The translations under genes were made by a program, and so were the position numbers. This document shows, one piece after another, positions 3,823 through 58,312 of a stretch of DNA of 64,000 bases. Position 1 is the first letter of the stretch, and every line of letters starts with the position of its first letter. The DNA lies in the IMG/VR virus record IMGVR_UViG_3300031687_000001, positions 1 through 64,000 of that record. One strand, given 5' to 3'. This DNA comes from a virus. The notes beneath the pieces are model-generated. The model was given only the letters and a program-made list of their open reading frames with translations, was not told the origin of the DNA and did no database searches.

Positions 3823-4742
3823 TACTTTAGACCTGCGAGTTTCTTTAATTTTTCAATAGCACTTGCATTATCACCAACTGCGCCTGCATTGCTTGCTGAT
3901 GCATCTGAGTTTGCGTCTTGCTGTACATCATCAGGATCAGTAGATGTCGTACGACCAGTAGATACCGTGTCACTGCCGTATGCTGCGTTTCCGCCGGGTG
4001 CACCTGCTACCTTACGCTCTTCAATAGTCTCTTCGTTGCGCTGAGATTTCTGATGAGCATTATACTCTTTACGACGAGCATCATGTTCTTTCTTTTCAGC
4101 AGGAGTCATTTGAGATACGAACTTCTTTGATTCGTCATACCTATCTGATGAAGTCTTTGACAGTGCGCTGGGATGACCCGCCTTTGGTGACGTAGTTGTT
4201 GTTGCAGGAGTTGATTTGCCCGCCAAACTTCTTACAGTCAAACCTAGCGCGACTCTGCCAATTGCTCCGATAATCGGTAACATTTCGTCTAATTGTTCTT
4301 CATCGTCGCGCTCATTTTTTAAATTTGCTACAACGCCAGGAGATTGCATCTCTTGCATTCTGCTATCTTTGTCATGCTGTGCGTACTCTTCATACGACAT
4401 ATAGTAATCAGTATCTGGATCATAGTATAGACCTTCTGTTGCATCATAATATACTACTTTACCAGATCGCAACATAAACGGACCTTCTAAACCATTGCGC
4501 TCTTGATAACGCTCTTTATCCATTGATGGAAGCACTGTATACCCTTCATCGAGATCTAGAGTGATATACTTAGTAAATAGATCATTGTCATTTGTCTTTA
4601 GTGCTGTAGTTAATTGCAATGTACCAGAGAAATTCAAGTCTCTTAGATCTGCACTGATCTGTTCATCAGTTAATTCTACACCAAACTGCTCTAGTGCATA
4701 ATCGCGCACTGTATGTATAATACTATTGTTCTTGATTTCCAT
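3822..4742 (-). CDS. Hypothetical late protein with basic low-complexity C-terminal half
   Basis: 306 residues. The N-terminal part (TVRDYALEQFGVELTDEQI, then acidic and Tyr-rich blocks) looks folded. The middle (about 155-190) is hydrophobic (MLPIIGAIGRVALGLTVRSLAG). The rest is Ser/Thr/Asp/Lys-rich and probably disordered. The hydrophobic segment could be a membrane or buried helix. The start overlaps the stop of the next upstream gene. No homologue is recognised; the position in a late operon suggests a virion or assembly role. Confidence 0.5.
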   Translation of the reverse strand: MEIKNNSIIHTVRDYALEQFGVELTDEQISADLRDLNFSGTLQLTTALKTNDNDLFTKYITLDLDEGYTVLPSMDKERYQERNGLEGPFMLRSGKVVYYDATEGLYYDPDTDYYMSYEEYAQHDKDSRMQEMQSPGVVANLKNERDDEEQLDEMLPIIGAIGRVALGLTVRSLAGKSTPATTTTSPKAGHPSALSKTSSDRYDESKKFVSQMTPAEKKEHDARRKEYNAHQKSQRNEETIEERKVAGAPGGNAAYGSDTVSTGRTTSTDPDDVQQDANSDASASNAGAVGDNASAIEKLKKLAGLK

Positions 4743-5029
4743 TATCGTCTCGATTTGTTTAATTGTTTTACGATTTTACTCGTTGGATTGACGCGCTTTG
4801 TCTTTTGCGCTTTTTTCGTCATCCTAGCACCCTTAGATGCTTTTGTCTTTTTCATTAAGAATCGTTTTTTAATATCAATTGGTGCGGCACATTGCTGAGG
4901 ACTTGATACAACTCTACCTTTACGCTTCCCTACGGTACATCTAAATTTCTTAACAACCTTATTTCCTCTCTTAGCAAAGACTACCTTTGATTCGGAAATA
5001 ACTGTATTGTATGCTTCATTAAGTATCAT
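4742..5029 (-). CDS. Very basic small protein with capsid-targeting-like N-terminus
   Basis: The 95-residue protein is strongly Lys/Arg-rich throughout. It has CTVGKRKGRVVSSPQQC, a pair of cysteines flanking a basic loop, and a KKTKASKGARMTKKAQKTK tail. It is likely to bind DNA. The N-terminus (MILNEAYNTVISESK) ends in ISE-S, which fits the (L/I)xE cleavage rule of the T4 gp21 prohead protease. Packaging into the head as an internal DNA-binding protein is a plausible inference. Similar small basic proteins occur in marine T4-like phages without a known role. Confidence 0.55.
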   Translation of the reverse strand: MILNEAYNTVISESKVVFAKRGNKVVKKFRCTVGKRKGRVVSSPQQCAAPIDIKKRFLMKKTKASKGARMTKKAQKTKRVNPTSKIVKQLNKSRR

Positions 5030-5888: not shown

Positions 5889-6581
5889 TTAAAGTTCTAA
5901 CGCTTTACCAGCGGCGTAACCAACTGCAAATGCAGCGGCGCCCTTTGCCAATGTGTTACCAATGCTTGATTTCTTAGCATCGTTAATCTCAAGACCTTTG
6001 TCTTTTGCAAACTTTGAATATAATGGCATCAAGTCACTACGACGAGCATTCATTCTGAAATATCTCATTAATTGAGTTGTAACCAATTGCTGTTGCTGTG
6101 TTGACAATTTAGTCCAATCTTGTGTTAGTCGACGTGCTGCACGCAACTTAGGATCTTGAATCTTTAAATCTTTTTCTAACTTAAAAAAGAACTGCTGAGC
6201 CACTGCTGGACTCATATTACCAGTTTTGATCTTTTGTAAGAATTGCTTTATCTTCGGAGTATCAATCTTTACTTTGCCCATCAACATAGTGTCTTTCTCG
6301 TCACTAAACATTTCACTTGGACGCTGAATACTAAAAATTGTTTGATATAAATCTGGACTGCTTGGACTTGGACGATTGAAATTGCCCATCGCAGTGGTTC
6401 GTTGTGCATATGCCTTTGCAACAGGTGCATAATTGTAATCATTGCTCATTGCATATAGACTCATAAGACTAACGAACAAATGATCAGTTAAACCCCTCGC
6501 TCCTGCACTAGCAATTTGATTTCTTGTTCTGAACATTCTTGCTTCGCCCAGAGTTTGCATAAATTCTAATTCATCTGACAT
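5889..6581 (-). CDS. Conserved hypothetical late protein
   Basis: 230 residues, mostly helical, with Gln-rich stretches (LSTQQQQLVTTQLMRYFRMNARR). A hydrophobic Gly/Ala C-terminus (KGAAAFAVGYAAGKALEL) could insert in or cross a membrane or channel. The start overlaps the stop of the ligase-like gene, so the two are co-translated. This layout resembles conserved unknowns of marine T4-like phages. No function can be assigned. Confidence 0.5.
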   Translation of the reverse strand: MSDELEFMQTLGEARMFRTRNQIASAGARGLTDHLFVSLMSLYAMSNDYNYAPVAKAYAQRTTAMGNFNRPSPSSPDLYQTIFSIQRPSEMFSDEKDTMLMGKVKIDTPKIKQFLQKIKTGNMSPAVAQQFFFKLEKDLKIQDPKLRAARRLTQDWTKLSTQQQQLVTTQLMRYFRMNARRSDLMPLYSKFAKDKGLEINDAKKSSIGNTLAKGAAAFAVGYAAGKALEL

Positions 6582-7813
6582 TATCTTACCACTCCTCTAT
6601 TTGCTGCACTAAACGTTGCTCTTGGAACTAACTTCATATCACCTTTGGGATGAGCGAGTACGTAACCTTCTCCGCCTGGCTGACCGTTAATGCTTTGCTT
6701 CACTTGTCCACCTTGACTATCAAATTTACCAATGATATCGTCTTTAGTAGCCATAACTGCTGCTACTACATTCCATAATGCAACGAATGCAACTTTATGT
6801 TGACCAATATATTCTAATACTTTGACTTTCATTTTATCTGAAACTTGTTTTCTATTCTCTAACCAAGTTGGGAAATCTGCACCTAACTTAGTTAGACCCG
6901 TGTCTACCTTACTATTCATATATGCGTATAGTAATTCGGGCAATACTTTCATTTTCTGTGTGGTTAGCGTGTTGTCATTTAATAGTTCATCAACGCCTGC
7001 TGCATTCTTTTTAATTATTTGTTCAAGTTGGTCAATTGCACCTGTATCAACTTCGACAGGTTGTTCTGTGGTTACACTTGGTACTACCAATACATCTTTT
7101 TGGTTGTTAAACAAGTCGATGTTACTCAAAGGTCCTTCGTTACCATTGGCATCTTCTTCTCTATGTATCACAATACCAGATGTACTTGCACCAATGCGCT
7201 TACCTAAATCGCTTTCTACATCTACTGCATACTCAACTACGTTTGGCTTGAACACATAGTTCTTTTCGACAACTTGAGGCGTTGATTGATATAATAGATC
7301 GCCTTTAAAGAATCCTCTATAGTCAGTCGGTACTGCTTTTTCATATATAGTAAACAAATTTGATAACTGTTTTGCAAATGCCATGCGCTTTGGGTCTTCA
7401 CGGAACTTACCACCACTACGACTAAGCATAATATCTTGTAGTTGTTCTGGACTCTTTGCCTTACCATCTGTTTTAACTGCTGAAAATCCTGACTTGTCTG
7501 TGAATATAAACTCACCGTCTTGATCGCGACCAAATACCATTGCAGGACTTCCATCCCATTTAAGTGTTACTGCTTTATGATCATCTCCTGACATACTGCG
7601 AAGTGCTTCAACTGCTCTCATAGCACCATTGCTGCCTTGGAAAAATATCAAGTCTTCTACGTGCTGTATGCGACTTTCTGATAGTACTGATTCTCCCAAC
7701 TCGGATACATCAACATCGTATAAATCTGATCCAGACTTCAATCTGCGATTTCTTGCATCTCTTGCTTCACGCTTCTTCTTGCCTGTAATATTAATAATTT
7801 CTGAAATTTTCAT
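6581..7813 (-). CDS. Divergent nucleotidyltransferase / ligase-like protein
   Basis: The 410-residue protein carries signs of the covalent nucleotidyltransferase fold of DNA/RNA ligases. A motif I-like K-x-D-G is seen in LKWDGSPAMVFG (K85-G88). A motif III-like YRGFFKGDLLYQ is near 165-176. A motif IV-like EGYVL is at 382-386, and a motif V-like MKLVPR is at 393-398. These match in order and spacing sense but not closely to any known ligase; the middle third is unlike ligases. Residues 1-46 are basic and end in LSE-S (44-47), a possible prohead-protease site. It is expressed from a late operon, not with the replication genes, so an in-head or early-infection end-joining role is an inference. 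A catalytically dead relative is possible. Confidence 0.55.
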   Translation of the reverse strand: MKISEIINITGKKKREARDARNRRLKSGSDLYDVDVSELGESVLSESRIQHVEDLIFFQGSNGAMRAVEALRSMSGDDHKAVTLKWDGSPAMVFGRDQDGEFIFTDKSGFSAVKTDGKAKSPEQLQDIMLSRSGGKFREDPKRMAFAKQLSNLFTIYEKAVPTDYRGFFKGDLLYQSTPQVVEKNYVFKPNVVEYAVDVESDLGKRIGASTSGIVIHREEDANGNEGPLSNIDLFNNQKDVLVVPSVTTEQPVEVDTGAIDQLEQIIKKNAAGVDELLNDNTLTTQKMKVLPELLYAYMNSKVDTGLTKLGADFPTWLENRKQVSDKMKVKVLEYIGQHKVAFVALWNVVAAVMATKDDIIGKFDSQGGQVKQSINGQPGGEGYVLAHPKGDMKLVPRATFSAANRGVVR

Positions 7814-8058
7814 TTTTTGTCTCGTAGTTTTTTTACACCGCGCACAAAACGACTTGGTTCTCTATTTTTAAGATCTAATATCATACGCTTTTGTAAATCT
7901 TGCGCGATATCAGCATCATAATTCTGTTCTATCATTTCAAGAAGATTGATCATACTACTCAATACATTAATACCACGGCTTTCTATTAATTGTGCGGTAT
8001 CTCTGGCTGGTGCAATATTATTAATTTCTTCTAATAATGATGTAGTTCGTTTCTTCAC
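7810..8058 (-). CDS. Small hypothetical protein, first gene of late operon
   Basis: An 82-residue helical, charged protein (MKKRTTSLLEEINNIAPARDT..., ends RGVKKLRDKK). The stop overlaps the start of the ligase-like gene (ATGA-type overlap). The late box at 8082-8088 is 24 nt upstream with an AAGCATGGAGA ribosome site between. Function unknown. Confidence 0.5.
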   Translation of the reverse strand: MKKRTTSLLEEINNIAPARDTAQLIESRGINVLSSMINLLEMIEQNYDADIAQDLQKRMILDLKNREPSRFVRGVKKLRDKK

Positions 8059-8081: not shown

Positions 8082-8088
8082 TATTTAT
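8082..8088 (-). promoter_or_regulatory. T4-late-type promoter box (ATAAATA)
   Basis: GCATAAATACACA on the minus strand between the end of gp41 (8093) and the 82-residue gene. It probably drives the whole 8058-3029 operon. Confidence 0.6.
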
Positions 8089-8092
8089 GCAT

Positions 8093-25227: not shown

Positions 25228-25548
25228 CTATTTTGAAATTATATTGCGCACTGATATTTCTAAATTTTCTAGAAATGTATCAATGTCAATTACTTCGTTT
25301 ACTAGTTCGTCAGCACTAACATCTACATCATCGTCTAATGATTCTATAACATCTGATTCATTAGTACTTAATTTATTAACATTAACCCATCTTTCATCGC
25401 CGGATTGTGAACGAATCATAACATCATTGAAGTCATTAGGATTGATACCAACTACTTTATAAGATTTATTCTTATATGTAATAACATCGCCCACTTGTGT
25501 AGGTGATTCTTGTAATACTGCTTCTATTAATTTTCTCATATCGTTCAT
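25228..25548 (-). CDS. Small acidic late protein with capsid-targeting-like N-terminus
   Basis: 106 residues. The N-terminus MNDMRKLIEAVLQESPT ends in LQE-S, fitting the T4 gp21 protease rule. A small SH3/Tudor-like beta segment follows (VGDVITYKNKSYKVVGI, ERWVNVNKL), then an acidic helical tail. The AAGGAAG ribosome site is good. It may be a head-internal or prohead core protein. It follows the unusual 25549-25683 region, which would be its 5' leader. Confidence 0.55.
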   Translation of the reverse strand: MNDMRKLIEAVLQESPTQVGDVITYKNKSYKVVGINPNDFNDVMIRSQSGDERWVNVNKLSTNESDVIESLDDDVDVSADELVNEVIDIDTFLENLEISVRNIISK

Positions 25549-25683: not shown

Positions 25684-27024
25684 TTATAGTCCTGCGTTTT
25701 TAAGCAAGATTGCCAATTCTTTGGATTCTTCCAATGATTCTTCCACTGATGGCTCTTTCTTATCTCCATCGTACTCAGGCTCATCGTCCATTGTAGGCTC
25801 TTTCTTCTTAGATGCTAACATCTTCGCAAAAGCGGCTTTTTGTGCTGGACTCTGTGATTCTTCTAATGTATCACATTCACATGGATCACATTCACATTCA
25901 TTACAAGCAACTGCTTCTTTTACATCTTCTGCTGCATCTTTCATATCTTCATCAGTATCGCCATCTTTGTCAATGTCCAGAAAGTCTGGCTTGTTCTTAG
26001 ATGCTTCGTATAATGATTTCATGTTGTCTACAGTATGCTCAGTTACGCTAACCTTCATGTCTTCTGCATCCATATAACGCTTCAATGACAAGTTTACAGG
26101 CTGTGCAAACTCATATGGATCGCCATGTGATGTAGGTTCAGTTTCGCCCGCATTTGCTGGTGAATTTGCCCATTCGGTAATCTTCTTTTCTATCGCTTCT
26201 TCCGATAGACCTGCGCTATGTAACATACTTACTAATTGAGTAGTATCCATTGTTGGAGACTCTTCTAAATTTTTATCTTCCATATCGTTTGCCGCCTTTT
26301 TCATGTCTTCTTCTTTATCGCCATCTTTGTCTATATCTGCAAAGTCTGGTTTTGCTTCTTCTGTTACCCAGTTTTCACCTGTCATATCATTACAATCATG
26401 ACTGCAATCTGTGGTAGGCTTGTGCATTTCATCGCCACAATCTCTGCATACTTTCTTTACGTCTGCTTCGTACATTGACTCAATGAATTTCACTGGTGTC
26501 AATACTGTGCCACCAGTTTTATGATCAAGACGCAATGCCATATAAGTGTCATCTATTTTTGTCTTATAATCACGATGTATCTTAGCATAATCTGCTTTGG
26601 TCATTTCTATTTCACCAGCATCATTAATGTTTGCCATCGGACCCATTGCTTCTTCAACTGATTCAGTTTGTGATGCACTTACTAAATCGTCTGCGTCTAC
26701 GCCCATTGCTTCGCCCATCGTAAATCCGTCCATTGGAGCGAATTTAACACCATCACTAGTAATACTAACAACTTTGAATTCGCCTTCGCTTATATCACCA
26801 AATGCGTCTATTTGAATGGTAACATTCATGTCTTTGATATCAGCATTATAATCTTCTGATCCTTCGGTTGAACCAAAGCCATTTGCAGTTGCAGTGAATA
26901 CTTCACTGTCATCTGTTCTTTCGAAATTGTCCAATGTAACATTGCCATCTACTAATACGGTTGTTTCTACCAATACCTCAGTATTAGTAGTTAATGATTC
27001 CATTAATGTTCTCATTTCATGCAT
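25684..27024 (-). CDS. Acidic virion-type protein with duplicated Ca-binding-like loops
   Basis: 446 residues, strongly acidic. Two copies of KPDFxDIDKDGDxxEDM (loops at 230-236 and 350-356) match the DxDxDG core of EF-hand or dockerin calcium loops. Two cysteine clusters (C193, C196, C207, C211 and C374-C384) could bind metal. The N-terminal half is beta-rich. The start (MHEMRTLMES) gives LME-S, a possible prohead-protease site. It overlaps the upstream gene by 8 nt. A head-core or internal protein role fits the location between terminase and head genes, but the family has no known function. Confidence 0.55.
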   Translation of the reverse strand: MHEMRTLMESLTTNTEVLVETTVLVDGNVTLDNFERTDDSEVFTATANGFGSTEGSEDYNADIKDMNVTIQIDAFGDISEGEFKVVSITSDGVKFAPMDGFTMGEAMGVDADDLVSASQTESVEEAMGPMANINDAGEIEMTKADYAKIHRDYKTKIDDTYMALRLDHKTGGTVLTPVKFIESMYEADVKKVCRDCGDEMHKPTTDCSHDCNDMTGENWVTEEAKPDFADIDKDGDKEEDMKKAANDMEDKNLEESPTMDTTQLVSMLHSAGLSEEAIEKKITEWANSPANAGETEPTSHGDPYEFAQPVNLSLKRYMDAEDMKVSVTEHTVDNMKSLYEASKNKPDFLDIDKDGDTDEDMKDAAEDVKEAVACNECECDPCECDTLEESQSPAQKAAFAKMLASKKKEPTMDDEPEYDGDKKEPSVEESLEESKELAILLKNAGL

Positions 27025-27529
27025 CTTTCTTCTCCTGATCTTTTTTTAATTTCAATAAATCTTGAACAAAAGAAGTATTATACTTGTCACCAAAAAAATC
27101 TTCTGGATTTATATCTTCTGCTTCTGAATAGGTACTATCAGCCAACAAACTTGAAACTCCTTCATCATCAGATTCTGAATCCATTAATGATTGCTCTCGT
27201 TGCTCTAACGGCTCTTGGTCTGAACGAACTTTCATGTATCCGTCGCTAATTCCGATAAGGGCTTGTATTTCTGTTTGTATCTGATATGCACTTGCTGGTA
27301 AATTTGTCTCAAATTCAACAACATATATCTCGTATCCACGTAGTTGTGGGAAATCATAAGGTGTGCTTTGTAGCATCAACTTAGTTGGTGCACTTACTTT
27401 CTGCACATCGTACTTAGCTAAGTGATTCTCAATGCGAGTTAAATCATCGCCAGATAATTCCTTTGCTAACTTAATGCGGAATGTGTATGTTTTTTTTGAT
27501 TCTGTCAAATATTCTGTAAAGGACTTCAT
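27017..27529 (-). CDS. Head-core-type protein, possibly gp68-like
   Basis: 170 residues beginning MKSFTEYLTESKK, which mirrors the capsid-targeting sequence of T4 internal proteins (MKTYQEFIAEA) with cleavage expected after LTE. A small alpha/beta domain (TFRIKLAKEL...AKYDVQKVSAP..., DFPQLRGYEIYVVEFETNLPAS) and an acidic tail follow. The layout resembles prohead core protein gp68 of T4-like phages, though I cannot confirm it. It lies in the packaging/head gene block with a late box at 27556. Confidence 0.5.
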   Translation of the reverse strand: MKSFTEYLTESKKTYTFRIKLAKELSGDDLTRIENHLAKYDVQKVSAPTKLMLQSTPYDFPQLRGYEIYVVEFETNLPASAYQIQTEIQALIGISDGYMKVRSDQEPLEQREQSLMDSESDDEGVSSLLADSTYSEAEDINPEDFFGDKYNTSFVQDLLKLKKDQEKKDA

Positions 27530-47121: not shown

Positions 47122-49131
47122 TTACTTACTTTTCAATACATCAATTTCTGCTTTCAATTCCTTGACTGCTTCAATTAATAGTGCTACGATATTTCCGTAA
47201 GCCACCGAGTAATGATCATCTTCTGATCCAGGTGTGCTATTTGGTCCACCAGTAACTGCTTCAGGTAATACTTTTAGTACTTCCTGTGCAATAACACCGA
47301 CATGTCTGTCAGTAGGATTATGTGCGTATACAGTAGGCACTTCTTCCGGTGTTGCCGGAGTAAGGTCTGTTCTATCATACGTATAACCATTTAGTTGACA
47401 TACTTTGTCCAATGCATCTGGAATTATCTCAAGATTTTCCTTAACACGTTCGTCTGAGTATGCAGTAACGTTACCTGAAGTCCAGATACTATCACCAATT
47501 GCAGAACGAGTAGTACCAGCAGACATATATGCTGCGTGATGACCTGCGATCTTGCGTCCGTTTGCGTTTGTGTTATTAGAATGAGTCCATGCTATTCCGT
47601 AGAAATTGCCTGGCGCTACACCATTATCATCTAATGTATACGCTGCGCCCATACTATAAACTTGTTGGAATTTAGTAGCTGAATATAATCCAGTTACACC
47701 GTGTCCGTAGTTTGAACCGAATGTGATATTGTTAGATACATTACCACCACTCGTTGGCAAATATGCGTGAGTATGTGAGTTCTTAGTTGATCCTTGATTC
47801 AAGATATAAGGAGCCAATGAAGCTGGCGTCATATATCTCAAATAAGAATCATTTGATGCATATATACGAGCTGGTGCTGATGTACTTGCGCCCGATGCAG
47901 TGTTAATCCAACCGAAGTTAGCGTAACCATTGGCATCTGTGCGAACGACTTTGTTGGCAGCATTGTTAGTTGTACCATTCAATGTCAATCCATCTACTGT
48001 TCCAGCGTTCAATCCAGCAGTACCGTTACTATCAACTGTTTTAAGAGATGCTAATAATTGTGCCGAAGTTTGATCTGCTGTTGCACCTGACTCAATGCCG
48101 TTTAACTTAGTATGATCTGTTGATGTAAAGTTGATCTGTGAAAGACCACCATCGCCTACTGAATAAGTAGTGTTAGGCCAAGACCTGTCATAAGCCGCTT
48201 TAACTGCTGCTGATGATGCAGATACAGATGTGCTTGTTGATGTTACGCTATTTGAAATTGCGCGATGAGTATTGGTGTCCTGTGCATCTGCATAAACCTT
48301 TGCTGATGCCAATGCTGCGTTTGCTTTAGTAGTCGCATCTGCTGCTGCCGTAGAAGCCGCTGATGATGTAACACTTGCGATTGCTGAACTTAGTTCTGAA
48401 TCAGTTGCCATTGCATCTTGGATTTCTTTAAGCGTATTAAATGCTGCGCCTGCGCCATTAGTTACGTCTGCAACTGCACCTGCTCTTGCTGCGTTTGCTT
48501 TACTAGTTGCGTCTGCTGCTGCTGCTGAGATTGCTTGTGACTTTGCATTATTTGCTTTAGTAGTTGCATCAGAACTTGCTGCTGATTCTGCATCTGCTTC
48601 TGCTTGATCTGCATATGCCTTTGCTGATACCAATGCTGCGTTCGCTTTGGTAGTCGCATCACTTGCTGCTGCTGAGATTGCTTGTGACTTTGCATTATTT
48701 GCTTTAGTAGTTGCATCAGAACTTGCTGCTGAGATTGCTTGTGACTTTGCATTATTTGCTTTAGTAGTTGCATCAGAACTTGCTGCTGATTCTGCATCTG
48801 CTTCTGCTTGATCTGCATATGCCTTTGCTGATACCAATGCTGCGTTCGCTTTACTAGTTGCATCACTTGCTGCTGCTGCTTTTACTTCTGCTGGCGAATC
48901 AACACCTGAGCCATTATCGGTTGTCAACATGGTAGTTGCTAAGATAGAAATGTTACGTTCCATATCTGCTGCTCTACGAAGCGATGACTTGGAACCAGAC
49001 ATAGAAATCTCGTTATCACCTAATGTTCCAGTTGATTCAACTAAATCACCTGTTGGACTGTACTTATATTTTTTGTTTTTGTCTAATGACACACTTGTCA
49101 TTACACCATTCTTTTTAATTTTTCTTGACAT
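47122..49131 (-). CDS. Tail-fibre-type protein, S74 class A, paralogue 1
   Basis: 669 residues. The first about 90 residues (MSRKIKKNGVMTSVSLDKNK..., SLRRAADMERNISILATTML) are nearly identical in four genes of the window. Ala-rich coiled-coil repeats (SDATTKANAALVSAK, AYADQAEADAESAA) run to about 250. A variable beta region follows. The C-terminal S74 domain (AYSDERVKENLEIIPDALDK, HVGVIAQEVLKVLPEAV, DDHYSVAYGNIVALLIEAVKE) is class A, shared with the 705-residue gene. It should trimerise and self-cleave. Confidence 0.88.
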   Translation of the reverse strand: MSRKIKKNGVMTSVSLDKNKKYKYSPTGDLVESTGTLGDNEISMSGSKSSLRRAADMERNISILATTMLTTDNGSGVDSPAEVKAAAASDATSKANAALVSAKAYADQAEADAESAASSDATTKANNAKSQAISAASSDATTKANNAKSQAISAAASDATTKANAALVSAKAYADQAEADAESAASSDATTKANNAKSQAISAAAADATSKANAARAGAVADVTNGAGAAFNTLKEIQDAMATDSELSSAIASVTSSAASTAAADATTKANAALASAKVYADAQDTNTHRAISNSVTSTSTSVSASSAAVKAAYDRSWPNTTYSVGDGGLSQINFTSTDHTKLNGIESGATADQTSAQLLASLKTVDSNGTAGLNAGTVDGLTLNGTTNNAANKVVRTDANGYANFGWINTASGASTSAPARIYASNDSYLRYMTPASLAPYILNQGSTKNSHTHAYLPTSGGNVSNNITFGSNYGHGVTGLYSATKFQQVYSMGAAYTLDDNGVAPGNFYGIAWTHSNNTNANGRKIAGHHAAYMSAGTTRSAIGDSIWTSGNVTAYSDERVKENLEIIPDALDKVCQLNGYTYDRTDLTPATPEEVPTVYAHNPTDRHVGVIAQEVLKVLPEAVTGGPNSTPGSEDDHYSVAYGNIVALLIEAVKELKAEIDVLKSK

Positions 49132-49149
49132 TATTTTATCTCCTTAAAG

Positions 49150-49262
49150 ATATTGATTGATACGAAGAATATACTCTGTATATTCCAGTGTTTATGATAA
49201 TCATAACTTTTATGATAATCATAAACTAAGCAGGGAGTTAAACTCCCTACGTTTGATCAATT
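49150..49262 (-). repeat. Intergenic module with tandem palindromes (copy 1)
   Basis: Between fibre genes. It holds two copies of the palindrome TTATGATNATCATAA in tandem (about 49190-49226), ATAAACA boxes, and a GGGAGT-TTA-ACTCCC hairpin (about 49234-49248). The same words, with one palindrome copy, recur at 53455-53545. The arrangement looks like a late promoter plus weak terminator module copied with the gene. Confidence 0.65.
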
Positions 49263-49266
49263 TATA

Positions 49267-51117
49267 CTACTTTTTTAATTTAGCAATTTCCGCTGCTTGA
49301 CTTTCTACCATTGATTTTAGTTCTTTTATAGACTCAATCAATAACGGAACCATACGCTCATATTGTACAGTTTTATAATCTGTACCATTGTCGCTATTAA
49401 TCGGTGCTGATTTAACAACCTCTGGCATTACTGCTTCAACTTCTTGTGCTGATACACCAACTTGCTGAACATCAGTATCATACCCAAGTTCGCCTGCTAC
49501 ATCATTACCAGTGTAATGATAGCCATTTAGTTGCGATACCTTGTCTAATGCATTCTCGATCTTACCACTAAAGTTCTTTAGACGCTCATCTGAGTAGTAT
49601 GCTGTTACTTCACCAGTTGCAGATATATTGGCAGCTCTAAAATTTTCATAGCCAGTGCCTGGATTGTTTCGTATTGTTATCGTACCGTCCGTCTCCATAG
49701 AGATATTTGATGCGACAACGCCGCCCCAATGCATACCGATTCTAGGAGCTGACATTCCAACACCCGATCCATATCCACCTTCTCTAACCTCAATTCCCGC
49801 GTCACCGTATCCAGTAGATGTTTGTGATGCTGATGCAAACTCATGGTTTCCTAAATGATTACCACCTGCTCGCAAACTTAAATGACCCGATGCAGTATCA
49901 GTAGCATCTGATCGTAGGAATTGCGAACCTTGAACTCCATCTAATAAATCAGCATCTAAGCCAGAGCCAGAACCGTCGTTTTGGTTATCCCAAATCTTGC
50001 GCCATGAACCCCAAGTACCGCTATTCATGCCACGTGACGATAATTCGCCTGTTCTAAAGTTACTGAATATCTGAGATACCCATGATGTGCTATGAGCTGC
50101 TACAAACATACCGCCATCTGAGAAACCTGCTGCGCTTGCAGCGTTGCAATAACCAATTGTGTTTGCGGTGGCGGAGTCAATTGCTAAAGCATTGCCAGTG
50201 TTGCGAGATGTAAACGTAGACCCCGCAAAGTTATAAGTCGTGTTAGGCCATGATCTATCATATGCTGCTTTAACTGCCGCTGATGATGCAGATATAGACG
50301 TGCTAGTTGATGTTACACTATTTGAAATACCACGCCATGTATTAGTATCTGTGTCATTTGCATCTGCATAAACCTTTGCTGCTGCCAATGCTGCGTTTGC
50401 TTTAGTAGTTGCATCTGCTGATGCTGTCGCCGCTGCTGATGATGTAACACTTGAGATCGCTGAACTTAGTTCCGAATCGGTTGCCATTGCATTTTGGATT
50501 TCAACTAAAGTATCAAATGCCGCCCCTGCGCCATTAGTTACTGCTGCAATTGCTGCTGTCTTTGCTGCGTTTGCTTTTGTAGTCGCATCACTTGCTGCTG
50601 CTGAAATTGCTTGTGACTTTGCATTATTTGCTTTGGTAGTCGCATCACTTGCTGCTGATGAAATTGCTTGTGACTTTGCATTATTTGCTTTGGTAGTCGC
50701 ATCACTTGCTGCTGATGAAATTGCTTGTGATTTTGCATTATTTGCTTTACTAGTTGCATCTGAACTTGCTGCTGATTCTGCATCTGCTTCTGCTTGATCT
50801 GCATATGCTTTTGCTGATACTAATGCTGCGTTTGCTTTAGTAGTTGCATCACTTGCTGCTGCTGCTTTTACTTCTGCTGGCGAATCAACACCTGCGCCGT
50901 TATCGGTTGTCAACATGGTAGTTGCTAATATGGAAATATTACGTTCCATATCTGCTGCTCTACGAAGCGATGACTTGGAACCAGACATAGAAATCTCGTT
51001 ATCGCCTAATGTTCCAGTTGATTCAACTAAATCACCTGTTGCATCATACTTATATTTTTTGTTTTTGTCTAATGACACACTTGTCATTACACCATTCTTT
51101 TTAATTTTTCTTGACAT
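49267..51117 (-). CDS. Tail-fibre-type protein, S74 class B, paralogue 2
   Basis: 616 residues. The N-terminus and coiled-coil repeats match paralogue 1. The middle contains FTSRNTGNALAIDSATANTIGYCNAASAAGF and GGMFVAAHSTSWVSQIFSNFRTGELSSRG, a short beta domain. The C-terminal S74 domain (AYYSDERLKNFSGKIENALDKVSQLNGYHY, QQVGVSAQEVEAVMPEVV, TVQYERMVPLLIESIKELK) is class B, shared with paralogue 4. Class and variable domain were changed together relative to paralogue 1. Confidence 0.88.
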   Translation of the reverse strand: MSRKIKKNGVMTSVSLDKNKKYKYDATGDLVESTGTLGDNEISMSGSKSSLRRAADMERNISILATTMLTTDNGAGVDSPAEVKAAAASDATTKANAALVSAKAYADQAEADAESAASSDATSKANNAKSQAISSAASDATTKANNAKSQAISSAASDATTKANNAKSQAISAAASDATTKANAAKTAAIAAVTNGAGAAFDTLVEIQNAMATDSELSSAISSVTSSAAATASADATTKANAALAAAKVYADANDTDTNTWRGISNSVTSTSTSISASSAAVKAAYDRSWPNTTYNFAGSTFTSRNTGNALAIDSATANTIGYCNAASAAGFSDGGMFVAAHSTSWVSQIFSNFRTGELSSRGMNSGTWGSWRKIWDNQNDGSGSGLDADLLDGVQGSQFLRSDATDTASGHLSLRAGGNHLGNHEFASASQTSTGYGDAGIEVREGGYGSGVGMSAPRIGMHWGGVVASNISMETDGTITIRNNPGTGYENFRAANISATGEVTAYYSDERLKNFSGKIENALDKVSQLNGYHYTGNDVAGELGYDTDVQQVGVSAQEVEAVMPEVVKSAPINSDNGTDYKTVQYERMVPLLIESIKELKSMVESQAAEIAKLKK

Positions 51118-51175
51118 GGTTTGGAATTCCTTTATTTAACATCTCGTCAGATCTTACTAACGCAGTGCTTATTGG

Positions 51176-51193
51176 TATTTATGCCATATTTAT
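51176..51193 (-). promoter_or_regulatory. Two late-type promoter boxes in tandem
   Basis: ATAAATA at 51187-51193 and 51176-51182, 11 bp apart, before the ATG at 51117. Confidence 0.55.
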
Positions 51194-51231
51194 GAAAGTT
51201 AACAACCTATATTCATAAATAAAATCCAAAT

Positions 51232-51256
51232 AAAAACGCCCACTGTGGGCGTTTTT
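51232..51256 (-). terminator. Strong terminator after the 705-residue fibre gene
   Basis: AAAAACGCCCAC-A-GTGGGCGTTTTT, nearly perfect, with T-runs on both strands. Similar to the one at 58414. Confidence 0.88.
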
Positions 51257-51284
51257 CTTCTTATAGTACTAAGTACTTTATAGA

Positions 51285-53402
51285 CTAGCGATTTGCTTTT
51301 AACTCATCAATTTGAACTTGTTGTTCTTTGATTGCTTCAATAAGCAATGCAACTAGATTACCGTATGCTACAGAGTAATGATCATCTTCTGATCCTTCAT
51401 TGCTGTTAGGACCGCCAGAAACTGCTTCTGGTAGTACAGCAAGAACTTCTTGTGCTATAACGCCAACATATCTATTTTTAGGATTATGAGCGTAAATAGT
51501 ACCTTCTTCCTCTGGAGTTGCTGGTTGCTTATCAGTTCTGTCGTATGTGTAACCATTTAACTGCTTGACTTTATCAATAGCGTTAGGTATTACTTCTAGG
51601 TTGTCTTTAACCCTTGCATCTGAATATGCAATCACATCGCCAGAAGTCCAAACATTAGAACCCATAGCTGATGTTGGGCCACCATTCTGACACCAAACCA
51701 TCTGATGTCCACTAGCCAACGCACCACCAGTAGCATTGTTAGTATGCTTATAGGCTAGACCATAAAGGTTTCCGAAGTTAACTCCAGTTGCGCTAGATTT
51801 ATAAGCAGTTCCCATAGACCAGATGTGGGTAGGGTTGGTTGAGTCATAATGTCCGTAAACACCTCTGTCACGATAAGCAGTTTCGTTTACTAAGTAACCA
51901 CGTTGGTAGATAGTGTTGTTCTGATAGTCAGTTGCGTCACTACGCATATAACTAGCACCATTGACACCGTCTAATAAGTTTGCATCGGCAGCCTTGGCAG
52001 TTAAACCTAAGTAGCTATGAGTGTGTCCATCAACACTAACGCCAACAGAATCACAGTACGACTTAAATGCACCGCTAGTCATAAACCTTGTGTAGTTATC
52101 AGAAGTGGAGTTGTTTCTGAACGCAATATCCGCAGTTGTTGCTGGTGCAGTACTTTGCTCCGCATAGTTTGATCGAAATAGTCTGGCAGTTATATCCGCT
52201 GCGCTATCTCGCTCTGCTACTGTATTAGCGGTTGCTGCTGAAGTAAGAGCATGACCATCTAATCTACCAGCGTTAATACCACCAGAGCCGTCAACATCTA
52301 CTGTCTTAATAGACGCTAATAGTTGAGCTGCTGATTGATCTGCTGTTGCTCCTGATTCAATGCCGTTTAACTTGCTGTGATCAGCCGAAGTAAAGTTAAT
52401 CTGTGAAAGACCACCATCACCTACAGAATAGGTTGTGTTAGGCCAAGATCTATCGTAAGCAGCCTTTACTGCTGCTGATGATGCTGATACAGATGTGCTA
52501 GTCGATGACGTGCTATTTGAAATACCGCGCCATGTATTAGTATTGGCATCATTTGCGTCTGCATAAACTTTTGCTGCTGCTAATGCTGCGTTTGCTTTAG
52601 TAGTCGCGTCTGCTGATGCAGTTGCTGCTGCTGACGAAGTAACACTTGAGATTGCTGAACTTAGTTCTGAATCAGTTGCCATTGCATTTTGGATTTCAAC
52701 TAAAGTATCAAATGCTGCGCCTGCGCCATTAGTTACTGCTGCAATTGCTGCTGCTTGTGCTGCATTTGCTTTGGTAGTCGCATCACTTGCTGCTGCTGAG
52801 ATCGCCTGTGATTTTGCATTATTTGCTTTAGTAGTCGCATCTGATGCTGCTGCTGATTCTGCATCTGCTTCTGCTTGATCTGCATATGACTTTGCTGATG
52901 CCAATGCTGCGTTTGCTTTTGTAGTCGCATCACTTGCTGCTGCTGAGATCGCCTGTGACTTTGCATTGTTTGCTTTAGTAGTCGCATCTGAACTTGCTGC
53001 TGATTCTGCATCTGCTTCTGCTTGATCTGCATATGCTTTTGCTGATACCAATGCTGCGTTTGCTTTAGTAGTCGCATCACTTGCTGCTGCCGAGATTGCT
53101 TGTGACTTTGCATTGTTTGCTTTAGTCGTTGCATCTGTTGCTGCTGCTGCTTTTACTTCTGCTGGCGAATCTATACCTGCGCCATTATCGGTTGTCAACA
53201 TGGTAGTTGCTAAGATAGAAATGTTACGTTCCATATCTGCTGCTCTACGAAGCGATGACTTAGAACCAGATATAGAAATCTCGTTATCACCTAATTCACC
53301 AGTTGATTCAACTAAATCACCTGTTGGGCTGTACTTATATTTTTTGTTTTTGTCTAATGACACACTTGTCATTACACCATTCTTTTTAATTTTTCTTGAC
53401 AT
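51285..53402 (-). CDS. Tail-fibre-type protein, S74 class A, paralogue 3
   Basis: 705 residues. Shared N-terminus (MSRKIKKNG...), then the longest set of SDATTKANNAKSQAIS repeats. The middle has VSVDGHTHSYLGLTAKAADANLLDGVNG, a shaft typical of long fibres. A class A S74 domain follows (AYSDARVKDNLEVIPNAIDK, YVGVIAQEVLAVLPEAV). The ATG is preceded by TAGGAGATG and a strong hairpin at 53424-53450. Confidence 0.88.
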   Translation of the reverse strand: MSRKIKKNGVMTSVSLDKNKKYKYSPTGDLVESTGELGDNEISISGSKSSLRRAADMERNISILATTMLTTDNGAGIDSPAEVKAAAATDATTKANNAKSQAISAAASDATTKANAALVSAKAYADQAEADAESAASSDATTKANNAKSQAISAAASDATTKANAALASAKSYADQAEADAESAAASDATTKANNAKSQAISAAASDATTKANAAQAAAIAAVTNGAGAAFDTLVEIQNAMATDSELSSAISSVTSSAAATASADATTKANAALAAAKVYADANDANTNTWRGISNSTSSTSTSVSASSAAVKAAYDRSWPNTTYSVGDGGLSQINFTSADHSKLNGIESGATADQSAAQLLASIKTVDVDGSGGINAGRLDGHALTSAATANTVAERDSAADITARLFRSNYAEQSTAPATTADIAFRNNSTSDNYTRFMTSGAFKSYCDSVGVSVDGHTHSYLGLTAKAADANLLDGVNGASYMRSDATDYQNNTIYQRGYLVNETAYRDRGVYGHYDSTNPTHIWSMGTAYKSSATGVNFGNLYGLAYKHTNNATGGALASGHQMVWCQNGGPTSAMGSNVWTSGDVIAYSDARVKDNLEVIPNAIDKVKQLNGYTYDRTDKQPATPEEEGTIYAHNPKNRYVGVIAQEVLAVLPEAVSGGPNSNEGSEDDHYSVAYGNLVALLIEAIKEQQVQIDELKANR

Positions 53403-53423
53403 TTTTACATCTCCTAAATGAAA

Positions 53424-53450
53424 ATACCGTCAATGAATCATTGACGGTAT
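53424..53450 (-). terminator. Perfect 13-bp hairpin between fibre genes
   Basis: ATACCGTCAATGA / TCATTGACGGTAT arms with a single central base, followed on the minus strand by TTTTCATTT. It may terminate the 750-residue gene's transcript or act in the leader of the 705-residue gene, whose ATG is about 20 nt downstream. Confidence 0.6.
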
Positions 53451-53454
53451 CGAT

Positions 53455-53545
53455 TGATACGAAGGATATAACTCAGTATATCCCAGTGTTTATGATTATC
53501 ATAAACTAAGTAGAGAGTTATGACAACTATCTACGTTTGATCAGT
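53455..53545 (-). repeat. Intergenic module with palindrome (copy 2)
   Basis: Similar to 49150-49262: GATACGAAG...ATA, CAGTGTTTATGATTATCATAAACTAAG, then CTACGTTTGATCA. It lacks the second palindrome. Such copies can recombine to shuffle fibre genes. Confidence 0.6.
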
Positions 53546-53550
53546 CTATA

Positions 53551-55803
53551 TTATGAACTTAATCCTGTTACTTCAATTTCGTCGTCTTCTGCAATAATAC
53601 CTTGTGAGATAGTTACAGTTGTGCCTGATACTGAATACTCGCTTGCACGTAGAAACAATCTGTTAACTAAAACAACATAATGCTTCGCACTTGACAATTC
53701 ACTAAACGTAAAGTTAGTTGTCGAAGTCGTGTTATTAGTTTCTTGTGATGCTGTAACATTCTGAACTGCACTGTGGAAGTGACTAAGTTGTGCAATTGCG
53801 CCTGCTTGTGCTGCGTTTGCTTTAGTAGTTGCATCACTCGCTGCTGCTGATTCTGCATCTGCTTCTGCTTGATCTGCATATGCTTTTGCTGATACTAATG
53901 CTGCGTTTGCTTTAGTAGTTGCATCACTCGCTGCTGCTGATTCTGCATCTGCTTCTGCTTGATCTGCATATGCTTTTGCTGATACTAATGCTGCGTTTGC
54001 TTTAGTAGTTGCATCTGTTGCTGCTGCTGATTGTGCTGCGTTAGCCTTTGAAGTAGCGTCTGCTGATGCTGTAGAAGCCGCTGATGATGTAACACTTGCG
54101 ATCGCTGAACTTAGTTCTGAATCAGTTGCCATTGCATCTTGGATTTCTTTAAGCGTATTAAATGCCGCCCCTGCGCCATTAGTTACGTCTGCAACTGCAC
54201 CTGCTCTTGCTGCGTTTGCTTTACTAGTTGCGTCTGCTGCTGCTGCTGATTGGGCTGCGTTAGCTTTAGTAGTTGCATCTGCTGATGCTGTTGCTGCACG
54301 AGTAGCGTCTTTAGATTCTGCTGCATTAATTGCTGCTAGTTCTGCTGCGTCTGCATATGAGTTTGCTGCTGATGCACGTACTACGTCTTTTGCTTCTGCT
54401 GATGCAATTGCTGCTAGTTCTGCTGCGTCTGCTTTAGTAGTCGCGTCTGCTGATGCTGTTGCTGCACGAGTAGCGTCTTTAGATTCTGCTGCATTAATTG
54501 CTGCTAGTTCTGCTGCGTCTGCTTTAGTAGTCGCGTCTGCTGATGCTGTTGCTGCTGCTGATGAAGTAACACTTGAGATTGCTGAACTTAGTTCTGCGTC
54601 GGTTGCCATTGCATTCTGAATTTCAACTAGAGTATCAAATGCTGCGCCTGCGCCATTAGTTACTGCTGCAATTGCTGCTGCTTGTGCTGCATTTGCTTTG
54701 GTAGTCGCATCACTTGCTGCTGTTGCTTCTGCTGTATCTGCGTATGATTTTGCTGATACTAATGCTGCGTCTGCTTTAGTAGTTGCATCTGTTGCTGCTG
54801 CTGATTGTGCTGCGTCTGCTTTAGTTGTTGCATCTGTTGCTGCTGCTGATTGTGCTGCGTCTGCTTTAGTTGTTGCATCTGTTGCTGCTGCTGATTGTGC
54901 TGCATCTGCTTTAGTAGTTGCATCTGTTGCTGCTGCTGATACTGCGTCTGCTTCTGCTGTGTCTACATATGATTCTTGTGCGTAACCAGTGAAGTCAACA
55001 TTGTTAGTAATTGCTGTATCTGTATAAGATGCTGCTGCTGCTATTGCTGCTGCTTCTGCTGCGTCTGCTTTAATTGTTGCGCCGTCTGCCGCTACTGAGA
55101 TGCTATTGGTGATTGTAGCAGCGAAGTTAGCATCATCGCCAAGTGCGGTAGCCAATTCGTTTAGTGTATCTAATGCGCCAGGTGCGCCGTTAATAAGACC
55201 ATTGATTGCTGCGTCTACATAAGTTTTGTTGGTTGCATGTCCATCTTCAGTTGGTGCTGCTAAGTTGATGATTTGGTTATTATCCATATCAACTTTATCG
55301 CCAAACTTAACTGCTGTTCCGTCTGCATCTGTAATTTTCTTACCAGAAGCCATTTGTAGAGTTGCTGCAACGTTAACAGTTGATGCAGATGCTAGTGTCA
55401 ATACACCAGTTCCTGTTACCTGTGTAGTCAACGATTGGTTAACATCAGCCTGAACAACGATCGTACCTGAATTAGATTCGATAACTTTCTGTCCATCAAT
55501 ATAAAGTGAACCTTCTGATAGGTAAAGGTCACGCCATTTCATTGTTGGTGAACCTAAGTCATAACCAGTAGTTCCGTCTGAATCTATTGAAGGTATGATA
55601 TGAGCAGACATAGTTAGATCACCTGTCATGGTGTCGCCTGATTTGCTTACTGATTGTGCTACTGCGCCGCCTGATGCTGATGCAATTGCTGATGCTAAGT
55701 CTTGTCCGTCTAATAAAACCGTATCAACTGTTAAATTACCAGTGATTACTGAATCTGCATTAGTTTCAAAACCTGCATCTATTAAAAATCTTTTTTGTGC
55801 CAT
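53551..55803 (-). CDS. Long helical tail-fibre-type protein without S74 domain
   Basis: 750 residues. The N-terminus (MAQKRFLIDAGFETNADSVITGNLTVDTVLLDG, YDLGSPTMKWRDLYLSEGSLYIDGQKV) is a phage-fibre attachment type seen in many T4-like phages. Residues about 210-680 are Ala-rich coiled-coil repeats (AAATDATTKADAAQSAA) sharing units with the S74 paralogues. The C-terminus (SSAKHYVVLVNRLFLRASEYSVSGTTVTISQGI) is a small beta domain. It may be a proximal shaft or partner for the S74 fibres. Confidence 0.78.
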   Translation of the reverse strand: MAQKRFLIDAGFETNADSVITGNLTVDTVLLDGQDLASAIASASGGAVAQSVSKSGDTMTGDLTMSAHIIPSIDSDGTTGYDLGSPTMKWRDLYLSEGSLYIDGQKVIESNSGTIVVQADVNQSLTTQVTGTGVLTLASASTVNVAATLQMASGKKITDADGTAVKFGDKVDMDNNQIINLAAPTEDGHATNKTYVDAAINGLINGAPGALDTLNELATALGDDANFAATITNSISVAADGATIKADAAEAAAIAAAASYTDTAITNNVDFTGYAQESYVDTAEADAVSAAATDATTKADAAQSAAATDATTKADAAQSAAATDATTKADAAQSAAATDATTKADAALVSAKSYADTAEATAASDATTKANAAQAAAIAAVTNGAGAAFDTLVEIQNAMATDAELSSAISSVTSSAAATASADATTKADAAELAAINAAESKDATRAATASADATTKADAAELAAIASAEAKDVVRASAANSYADAAELAAINAAESKDATRAATASADATTKANAAQSAAAADATSKANAARAGAVADVTNGAGAAFNTLKEIQDAMATDSELSSAIASVTSSAASTASADATSKANAAQSAAATDATTKANAALVSAKAYADQAEADAESAAASDATTKANAALVSAKAYADQAEADAESAAASDATTKANAAQAGAIAQLSHFHSAVQNVTASQETNNTTSTTNFTFSELSSAKHYVVLVNRLFLRASEYSVSGTTVTISQGIIAEDDEIEVTGLSS

Positions 55804-55857
55804 TATATTATGTTTCCTTTTTCGCGAAAAAAACGTTAGATCTTACTAACGTAATGG

Positions 55858-55875
55858 TATTTATGCATTATTTAT
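55858..55875 (-). promoter_or_regulatory. Two late-type promoter boxes in tandem
   Basis: ATAAATA at 55869-55875 and 55858-55864, before the ATG at 55803. The same tandem arrangement as at 51176-51193. Confidence 0.55.
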
Positions 55876-55893
55876 ATATGTTAACAACTTAGT

Positions 55894-56417
55894 TTAAGTT
55901 GAAATCTGTGCTGTGGTGGTTTGATTCTGGTAGCCTGAAGTGTCTACCCAAGAGGTTACATAATCAGACACTCTTAACCAGTATACATTGGTTCCAGACC
56001 CTATCTGATAAGCGTAAGAACCTCTTTGATAGAGACGAGTTCCTATCGTATGTGAGTAAACTCTTAAAGAACCTGAAACGTTATTTCTGTGGTAACTAAC
56101 GTTTGCAACTCCAGGATAGTCCCATATGGCAAAAGAATACATATCCTTAGCCCACGTCCAGTAACCTTGTGTATATGGGTTTGTATACGCAAGCTCTTGG
56201 AAAGTGGACTCATTATGCCCACTACTAACCCAAACGCTTGTAGTCACCTGATTACTCTTGCCGTGGAAATTATTGAATCTAATAGAACCAGATGATGGTA
56301 TACCTGAGACACCTTTACCTGCTAAGGCATGGTACTCAGATAACGAGTGGGAACCTACGCCTCCAAAGTGAGCAGCAATCTGTAGAATCTAATTTCTCCA
56401 GAGGTTTGTAAAGCCAT
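55894..56417 (-). pseudogene. Small tail/appendage gene broken by one-base frameshift
   Basis: The frame opens with ATG at 56417 (overlapping the stop of the upstream fibre gene as TAATG) and reads MALQTSGEIRF, then hits a stop after 20 codons. The next frame continues without gap as QIAAHFGGVGSHSLSEYHAL, then SGSIRFNNFHGKSN and the 117-residue beta domain TTSVWVSSGHNEST...TTAQIST to 55894. The total length, 524 nt, is one base short of a whole frame, so a single base is missing near 56381-56386 (TTCTACAG; TTCTCACAG would restore FSQI). It may be a true mutation or a sequencing error. Confidence 0.75.
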
Positions 56418-58312
56418 TACGCACCTCCTACTAGAGCCTTGAGTTCATCTATCTGAACTTGCTGTTCATCTATCTGAGTCTGTTGTTCTTTAATAGATTC
56501 GATGAGTAGAGGTACAAGTTTGTCGTATTGGACGGTCTTATACCCTTCACCAATAGCTGCATCCACTACGATCTCTGGTAACACCGCTTCAACTTCTTGG
56601 GCTGATACACCTACCTGACGCTCTTCAGTGTCGTAACCGAACGTTGCTGCTACATCGTTTCCTTTGTAGTAGTAACCGTTAAGTTGCTTAACCTTATCTA
56701 GGGCGTTAGGTATAGTTCCCTCAAAGTCCTTTAGGCGTTCATCTGAGTAATACGCAGTAACGTTACCTGTAAACAAGCCAGTTCCAGCAACATGAAAGCT
56801 CATTGAGGCTTCCGTACCGTATACCTTGAATGCATTACCAGATCCGTAACTACTGCCGTCTGAGTGAACGTATGCTATAGTTCCGTTCTGGCCTTCTGCT
56901 GGTATATTATCGGAGAAGTTTATTAAGCAAGGGCCAGCGTTAGATGTAGCTCGTAGGTTTATAACACCCGTATCACTACGGAAGTAACTTGAACCATGAA
57001 CTCCATCTAATAAATCAGCATCTAAGCCAGAGCCAGAACCGTCGTTATCGGGGTGCCAGTATTCAGCACCACCAGTGTATTTGTAGACCCCGCCATTAAT
57101 ATGAACGCTTTTGTTCATGTAGAACAGGCCACGGTCAGTTTGTATATGCCCCCAAGAGGAATTTCCAGGACCAAGGGTGATATTACCGTGTGGGGTAGTG
57201 AAAGTATGTGCAGATGAGGAAGTGGTAAAGTACCCCGGACTATTGACTGTTCCAGTAAGTGTTGGGCTAGCCTTTGGTGCTAGTGCTGACAAATCTTGAT
57301 CTGCTGTAGCTCCTGTCTCTATACCATTTAACTTAGTATGATCAGCAGATGTAAAGTTGATCTGCGTTAAGCCTCCGTCACCCACAGAGTAAGTGGTGTT
57401 GGTATCAGGCCAAGACCGATCATAAGCTGCTTTCACAGCGGCAGATGATGCAGATATAGACGTGCTAGTTGATGTTACACTATTTGAAATACCACGCCAT
57501 GTATTAGTATTTGCGTCATTTGCATCTGCGTATACTTTAGCTGCTGCCAATGCTGCGTTTGCTTTAGAAGTTGCATCTGCCGATGCTGTTGCCGCTGCTG
57601 ATGATGTAACACTTGAGATCGCTGAACTTAGTTCCGAATCGGTTGCCATTGCATTCTGAATTTCAACTAAAGTATCAAATGCTGCGCCTGCGCCATTAGT
57701 TACTGCTGCAATTGCTGCTGTCTTTGCTGCGTTTGCTTTAGTAGTCGCATCACTCGCTGCTGCTGAAATTGCTTGTGATTTTGCATTATTTGCTTTAGTA
57801 GTCGCATCTGATGCTGCTGCTGATTCTGCATCTGCTTCTGCTTGATCTGCATATGCTTTTGCTGATACCAATGCTGCGTTTGCTTTAGTAGTCGCATCAC
57901 TTGCTGCTGATGAAATTGCTTGTGATTTTGCATTATTTGCTTTACTAGTCGCATCTGAACTTGCTGCTGATTCTGCATCTGCTTCTGCTTGATCTGCATA
58001 TGCTTTTGCTGATACCAATGCATTATTTGCTTTAGTCGTTGCATCTGTTGCTGCTGCTGCTTTTACTTCTGCTGGCGAATCTATACCTGCGCCATTATCG
58101 GTTGTCAACATCGTAGTCGCTAAGATAGAAATGTTACGTTCCATATCTGCTGCTCTACGAAGCGATGACTTAGACCCAGATATAGAAATCTCGTTATCGC
58201 CTAATGTTCCAGTTGATTCAACTAAATCACCTGTTGCATCGTACTTATATTTTTTGTTCTTATCTAATGACACACTTGTCATTACACCATTCTTTTTAAT
58301 TTTTCTTGACAT
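56417..58312 (-). CDS. Tail-fibre-type protein, S74 class B, paralogue 4
   Basis: 631 residues. Shared N-terminus and coiled-coil repeats. The middle domain (ALAPKASPTLTGTVNSPGYF, TTPHGNITLGPGNSSWGHI) is unlike the other paralogues. S74 class B follows (AYYSDERLKDFEGTIPNALDK, RQVGVSAQEVEAVLPEIV, VQYDKLVPLLIESIKEQQ). The stretch from about 57450 to 55894 looks less AT-rich with different codon choice from the N-terminal part, suggesting replacement by recombination. The stop is coupled to the frameshifted small gene. Confidence 0.88.
   Translation of the reverse strand: MSRKIKKNGVMTSVSLDKNKKYKYDATGDLVESTGTLGDNEISISGSKSSLRRAADMERNISILATTMLTTDNGAGIDSPAEVKAAAATDATTKANNALVSAKAYADQAEADAESAASSDATSKANNAKSQAISSAASDATTKANAALVSAKAYADQAEADAESAAASDATTKANNAKSQAISAAASDATTKANAAKTAAIAAVTNGAGAAFDTLVEIQNAMATDSELSSAISSVTSSAAATASADATSKANAALAAAKVYADANDANTNTWRGISNSVTSTSTSISASSAAVKAAYDRSWPDTNTTYSVGDGGLTQINFTSADHTKLNGIETGATADQDLSALAPKASPTLTGTVNSPGYFTTSSSAHTFTTPHGNITLGPGNSSWGHIQTDRGLFYMNKSVHINGGVYKYTGGAEYWHPDNDGSGSGLDADLLDGVHGSSYFRSDTGVINLRATSNAGPCLINFSDNIPAEGQNGTIAYVHSDGSSYGSGNAFKVYGTEASMSFHVAGTGLFTGNVTAYYSDERLKDFEGTIPNALDKVKQLNGYYYKGNDVAATFGYDTEERQVGVSAQEVEAVLPEIVVDAAIGEGYKTVQYDKLVPLLIESIKEQQTQIDEQQVQIDELKALVGGA

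Follow-up and report, generated by a model that had tools for sequence, protein, structure and literature searches.

Does a T4-like marine phage carry a ligase-like enzyme in its head and deliver it into the host together with its DNA? The question is raised by a gene at positions 6581-7813 (minus strand) of a phage genome record of 148,882 bases, the first 64 kb of which constitute the stretch analysed here, called the window below. The gene starts with ATG and encodes 410 amino acids plus the stop. An earlier reading made from the sequence only had noticed short motifs in the order of ligase motifs I, III, IV and V, an N-terminal stretch ending in a site for a T4-type prohead protease, and the position of the gene in a late operon. 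The analysis described here points to a nucleotidyltransferase of the ligase superfamily, which is probably packaged in the phage head.

The gene and its transcription unit

The gene belongs to a two-gene unit. The first gene of the unit (7810-8058, minus strand, GTG start) matches phrog_11854, annotated 'virion structural protein', and its stop overlaps the start of the ligase-like gene. Genes of this type are seen near homologues of the ligase-like gene in 31 loci. A late-promoter-like CATAAATA is located at 8082-8089 (read 8089-8082 on the minus strand), 31 nt upstream of the GTG start. Such an element is found about 30 nt upstream of the phrog_11854-type gene in 21 of the 31 related loci, and most of the remaining loci have NCTAAATAC at a similar place. 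In the whole genome, NATAAATA occurs upstream of predicted genes 30 times in the sense and 6 times in the antisense orientation. The shorter TATAAATA alone is not enriched across the window as a whole, and the promoter signal emerges only when the strand and the position relative to gene starts are considered. The assignment to a late operon holds: as judged from the DNA, the two-gene unit is predicted to be expressed late, from a conserved late-promoter element at its start.

The gene downstream (5889-6581, minus strand) encodes an 'EARMF' family protein, which has a predicted cleavage site, TLGE-A, near its N terminus (the hyphen marks the cut here and below) and a hydrophobic C terminus. 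In one related locus (L078), the 'EARMF' protein is fused to the ligase-like protein with LMTE-A at the junction.

Elsewhere in the window, positions 47122-58312 encode several large paralogous fibre-like proteins with common MSRKIKKNGVMTSVSLDKNKKYKY starts and similar end segments, which by eye are like S74-type chaperone domains. This arrangement suggests alternative tail fibres.

Family and conserved motifs

The protein matches the Pfam family DUF6267 (PF19782; E=1e-35, 124.1 bits against a gathering cut-off of 27, model positions 4-371 of 376) over its residues 49-405, and is also a member of phrog_455. The relatives in isolated phages are mostly from cyanophages, where the family is called T4-GC71, with others in Pelagibacter, Methylophilales, Vibrio and a few other phages. 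A literature search returned no paper that names DUF6267, and NCBIfam has no model for a protein of this type.

An alignment of 52 diverse homologues, with identity down to about 21%, contains 23 invariant columns. Residues K85, D87 and G88 of motif I (KWDG, residues 85-88, window positions 7550-7561), G171 and D172 of motif III (GDLLY, 171-175, 7289-7303), G213 and H217 of GIVIH at the place of motif IIIa (213-217, 7163-7177), E382, G383 and V385 of motif IV (EGYVL, 382-386, 6656-6670), and K394 and R398 of motif V (MKLVPR, 393-398, 6620-6637), all encoded on the minus strand, are present in all 52 sequences. K85 is the predicted AMP-accepting lysine, and the letters of motif IV are identical to those of motif IV in T4 Rnl2. 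The sequence-only reading had located KWDG, EGYVL, MKLVPR and the site LSE-S (residues 44-46 and 47) correctly, and the order that it had recognised, that of ligase motifs I, III, IV and V, is kept by the invariant residues throughout the homologues. This conservation indicates that the ligase-type motifs are not due to chance.

Predicted fold

The AlphaFold2 model of the DUF6267 protein has a mean pLDDT of 88.2. A Foldseek search of the PDB with this model gave weak matches, the best of which was the adenylyltransferase domain of a tRNA ligase (E=0.078). In the VIA-align comparison, all 47 top rows are RNA or DNA ligases, with Z between 7.5 and 4.8 and thus all under 8. The best row is the Naegleria RNA ligase (Z 7.5, 181 residues at an rmsd of 4.3), followed among others by T4 Rnl1 (Z 6.3), the trypanosome editing ligase (6.1), LigIV (6.0) and Rnl2 (5.8); RNA and DNA ligases cannot be told apart by Z differences under 1-2. 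The ligase of African swine fever virus (ASFV) and LigD are also among the matches. The first row that is not a ligase, a helical BAR-type domain, has rank 48 (Z 4.8, rmsd 10.7). The comparison with ligases therefore did not reveal the unrelated fold that would have spoken against the sequence-only reading. The model is without a C-terminal domain, and its secondary structure shows about 110 family-specific residues inserted as helices between motifs IIIa and IV (about residues 257-367, 6713-7045, minus strand).

Profile comparisons add little to the structural ones. In an hhalign comparison with the Rnl2 family nothing aligned except motif IV (EGYVL), and the RNA_lig_T4_1 profile matched two of the 52 family members weakly (E 0.015). 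Since no profile homology with Rnl2 was found beyond EGYVL, membership in the superfamily rests on the fold and the invariant motifs. Matches to PDB sequences (phmmer, profile search) were only helical chance matches, and a Pfam BOF (OB-fold) match with E 0.055 was below the cut-off and was rejected. The VIA rows support a nucleotidyltransferase fold, with a strength that is only moderate because Foldseek by itself is weak. The DUF6267 protein is thus a predicted member of the DNA/RNA-ligase superfamily of covalent nucleotidyltransferases.

Predicted N-terminal leader

Short N-terminal capsid-targeting sequences (CTS) direct T4 proteins into the prohead core, a CTS alone suffices to send foreign proteins into T4 heads, and gp21 cuts short N-terminal peptides off the T4 internal proteins (IPs) and Alt (PMC3012670, PMC9958956). 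Residues 1-46 of the DUF6267 protein (MKISEIIN...SVLSE; 7676-7813, minus strand) are a predicted leader of this capsid-targeting or propeptide type. They are predicted to be disordered, with pLDDT mostly under 60, and cleavage is predicted between E46 and S47. Homology begins at the start of the predicted mature enzyme (residues 47-410, starting SRIQHVEDL; 6584-7675, minus strand), the DUF6267 match setting in at residue 49.

Of the homologues from viral contigs, 39 are extended at the N terminus, and in 38 of these an (I/L/V/M/F)xE site precedes the conserved H51 by 2-16 residues, compared with a shuffle expectation, uncorrected for relatedness, of 16.5 +/- 2.9 (maximum 28). In L064, which is without the site, the start is probably misassigned. 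Contigs of cellular genomes supplied another set of extended homologues, in which 15 of 17 sequences have the site. The leaders vary in length and letters and are not alignable, and the LxE-type site is nonetheless retained, which indicates that its presence is not due to chance. Several homologues, with MKSFKKYIAE-A, MKNFRQFLTE-S, MITFKQYLAE-A and MKSFKSFITE-A, resemble T4 ipIII (MKTYQEFIAE-A). The DUF6267 proteins of Pelagibacter phage HTVC008M and Methylophilales phage Melnitz have the leaders MYNDLLVE-D and MINFSKYITE-D, respectively. Fusion proteins in four loci (L039, L050, L078 and L081) have an LxE-type site at the domain junction. The major capsid protein of the phage has NYLTE-S aligned at the T4 gp23 cleavage place (SFLTE-A), obeying the same rule as LSE-S, and an S77 prohead (head maturation) protease is encoded in the genome. 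At the level of sequence, these results bear out the T4-type cleavable head leader that had been proposed for the protein.

The gp41 helicase neighbours, taken as a negative control, have the leader pattern at the N terminus in 2 of 37 cases. Over all open reading frames of the genome the pattern is not enriched (14 against 12.1 expected), so that it is not diagnostic by itself and the argument rests on its conservation at the family level. The leader is absent in cyanophage, Vibrio and some other orthologues, and the cyanophage proteins (T4-GC71) begin MAKNTHLEHLED; because of these, packaging cannot be claimed for the whole DUF6267 family. T4-GC71 is missing from the virion proteins named in the main text of the proteomics study of cyanophages (PMC3037559). 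The literature search found nothing direct on virion nucleotidyltransferases or packaged RNA ligases, and no report of a DUF6267 protein detected in virions.

Other genes on the minus strand of the window also have T4-like leaders. They are located at 27017-27529, 25684-27024, 25228-25548, 1754-2071 and 4742-5029, and the leaders are MKSFTEYLTE-S, MHEMRTLME-S, MNDMRKLIEAVLQE-S, MRFSEIVVE-D and MILNEAYNTVISE-S. Two of the four leader-bearing minus-strand genes that were scanned match 'virion structural protein' PHROGs. An HxGH cytidyltransferase-like gene at 85949-86557 of the record (1949-2557 of locus L119), far away and on the strand opposite to the DUF6267 unit, has a head-type leader of its own, MRISDIITE-S.

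Gene neighbourhoods in related phages

The DUF6267 gene usually follows the gene of the replicative helicase gp41. In 16 related loci a gene of a PolX-like nucleotidyltransferase is found nearby, usually directly upstream; many other homologue neighbourhoods are without it. The PolX-like protein has the signatures GS/TxG, SGDxD and QxD and a conserved (L/I)xE-GG at its N terminus, and does not match Pfam RlaP. In Foldseek its model, with a pLDDT of 82, matched DNA polymerase beta (E=2e-5); the model also resembles ASFV PolX (Z 8.2) and terminal uridylyltransferases. The annotation of a relative encoded by Pseudomonas phage PA5oct reads 'structural protein, ESI-MS/MS'. In HTVC008M, a Zeta-toxin/AAA_33 P-loop kinase with an FILKE-G start is encoded two genes after DUF6267 (L113, 6658-7320).

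HxGH nucleotidyltransferases are the commonest partner of DUF6267 in cyanophages, where one of them, the cytidylyltransferase-like T4-GC190, is the downstream neighbour. Head-type leaders are present in 17 of 22 non-identical sequences of the HxGH neighbours, and T4-GC190 of cyanophage S-SM1 begins MKKFSAFLNE-A. The text of the proteomics study reports this protein in S-SM1 virions (PMC3037559).

Two long open reading frames unite several of these domains. One, of 982 amino acids (L042, 581-3526), contains DUF6267 and two PolX/Pol-beta-like segments (GDIDV ... QLD/QID), with an LLITE-GG site before the last PolX-like segment, and looks like a processed head polyprotein. The other, of 938 amino acids (L081, 1322-4135), begins like an HxGH nucleotidyltransferase (CTP_transf_like, below the cut-off), contains a SET domain (PF00856, E 4e-7) and has DUF6267 as its C-terminal part.

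Searches of the present genome gave no match to the PolX-like family or to the Pfam RNA ligase, ATP-dependent DNA ligase and RlaP families, and found no P-loop kinase (PF13671) or tRNA genes. With no PolX-like nucleotidyltransferase, kinase or other ligase found in this genome, the repair partners discussed below are deduced from its relatives.

Proposed role

From the computational analysis we infer packaging of the DUF6267 protein, its cleavage after E46, injection, catalysis and a substrate, as follows. By analogy with T4, the protein would be made late and taken up into the prohead during assembly through its N-terminal leader. A gp21-type protease would trim the leader after LSE46, and the enzyme would stay in the mature head until it is delivered into the host along with the phage DNA. 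K85 would then be charged with AMP from host ATP (lysyl-AMP type), and the charged enzyme would perform an end-joining or end-adenylylating reaction.

In phages, RNA ligases partner Pol-beta nucleotidyltransferases, whose predicted task is to put nucleotides back before the strand is sealed (PMC7824862). Because of this partnership, the first choice of substrate, favoured at clearly less than an even chance, is host RNA (tRNA) cut by defence nucleases, the nicks of which the enzyme would seal. In related phages, the leader-bearing PolX-like nucleotidyltransferase encoded alongside may restore lost nucleotides before sealing. A tentative extension, which we regard as conceivable, is that marine T4-like phages package and inject a repair kit for the early mending of tRNA or DNA breaks caused by host defences. 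Besides the DUF6267 ligase, the kit would comprise HxGH nucleotidyltransferases and a PolX-like nucleotidyltransferase of gap-filling or terminal type, all equipped with individual cleavable capsid-targeting leaders.

The close second choice of substrate, doubtful but worth keeping in view, is damaged incoming DNA, the gaps of which would be sealed. A head-packaged ligase-fold enzyme acting together with the PolX-like partner might mend gaps and nicks in sunlight-damaged phage DNA, and the two would then be comparable to the ASFV PolX/ligase pair. The likeness of the PolX-like neighbour to ASFV PolX and DNA polymerase beta, the matches of the ligase model to the ASFV ligase, LigIV and LigD, and the usual position of DUF6267 after gp41 agree with such a role. 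Replicative DNA ligases, however, have an OB-fold domain after motif V, and the DUF6267 protein has none; the best structural rows are RNA ligases, although at Z differences too small to discriminate; and the PolX-like gene is missing from many neighbourhoods. On this evidence we consider action on DNA a minority prospect.

It is rather unlikely that the protein works as a nucleotidyltransferase inside the cell without being packaged, its N-terminal LxE site being inherited and functionless. The cyanophage and Vibrio orthologues without any leader would fit this, as would the missing mention of T4-GC71 in the text of PMC3037559, but the site stays beside the domain boundary in nearly all leaders even though their length and letters vary, the four fusions have it at the domain junction, and the promoter is late.

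Also unlikely is a ligase-fold enzyme that transfers AMP to host proteins or uses it to cap some host molecule, and so serves host takeover, in the manner of T4 Alt, instead of repair. In favour of this, T4 modifies RNA polymerase by its packaged transferase Alt, the L081 fusion unites DUF6267 with a SET domain and a segment like HxGH nucleotidyltransferases, and in cyanophages HxGH enzymes are the most frequent partner. Against this, the PolX-like neighbours in 16 loci and the P-loop kinase neighbour in HTVC008M point to nucleic-acid ends, and to our knowledge no member of the ligase superfamily AMPylates proteins. A ligase-fold protein that has lost catalysis and now serves as a structural or scaffold-core component of the head would suit the company of virion structural proteins but is very improbable, as the catalytic residues are all invariant in 52 sequences.

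DUF6267 is found in hundreds of marine phage genomes and has so far been without any function; the predicted ligase-type fold and head-targeting leader make both its function and its location directly testable. The (L/I)xE leaders may offer a general means of predicting which phage enzymes are injected. If a packaged ligase-type enzyme is confirmed, repair that counters host defences would arrive before any phage gene is expressed, changing the view of early host-phage conflict in abundant ocean bacteria.

Comparison with known systems

The protein belongs to the known family DUF6267 (PF19782, phrog_455, T4-GC71) over residues 49-405 and has the same invariant motifs; as known, the family has no assigned function or fold, and its cyanophage members have no head leader. 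With T4 RNA ligases 1 and 2 and the Naegleria RNA ligase it shares motifs I, III, IV and V in order and, in the model, the nucleotidyltransferase core, and with Rnl2 the motif EGYVL. It differs from these ligases in the helical insertion between motifs IIIa and IV, in the lack of a C-terminal domain and in showing at most weak profile similarity to them. The T4 ligases, unlike what is predicted here, are not head proteins.

With T4 IPI-IPIII and Alt the protein has in common an N-terminal leader ending in (L/I)xE, predicted late expression and an S77 protease in the genome, and Alt is an enzyme too. The probable payload here is a predicted ligase-fold nucleotidyltransferase. T4-GC190 of S-SM1, the gene of which is adjacent to DUF6267 in cyanophages, is likewise a nucleotidyltransferase with a leader but belongs to the HxGH superfamily. 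The RNA repair cassettes of jumbo phages (PMC7824862) also place a ligase, an RNA ligase in their case, next to a Pol-beta nucleotidyltransferase, RlaP; the upstream nucleotidyltransferase in the DUF6267 relatives has no Pfam RlaP match, and both proteins carry head leaders.

The sequence-only reading had held that a nucleotidyltransferase carried in the virion and injected with the DNA would be new. This stands in part: T4-GC190, of another superfamily, has been reported in virions in the text of PMC3037559, detection by mass spectrometry is noted in the annotation of the PolX-like relative in PA5oct, and T4 Alt is an injected transferase. What is predicted to be new is a ligase-type payload among the T4-style head-packaged enzymes and, in related phages, a whole set of nucleotidyltransferases.
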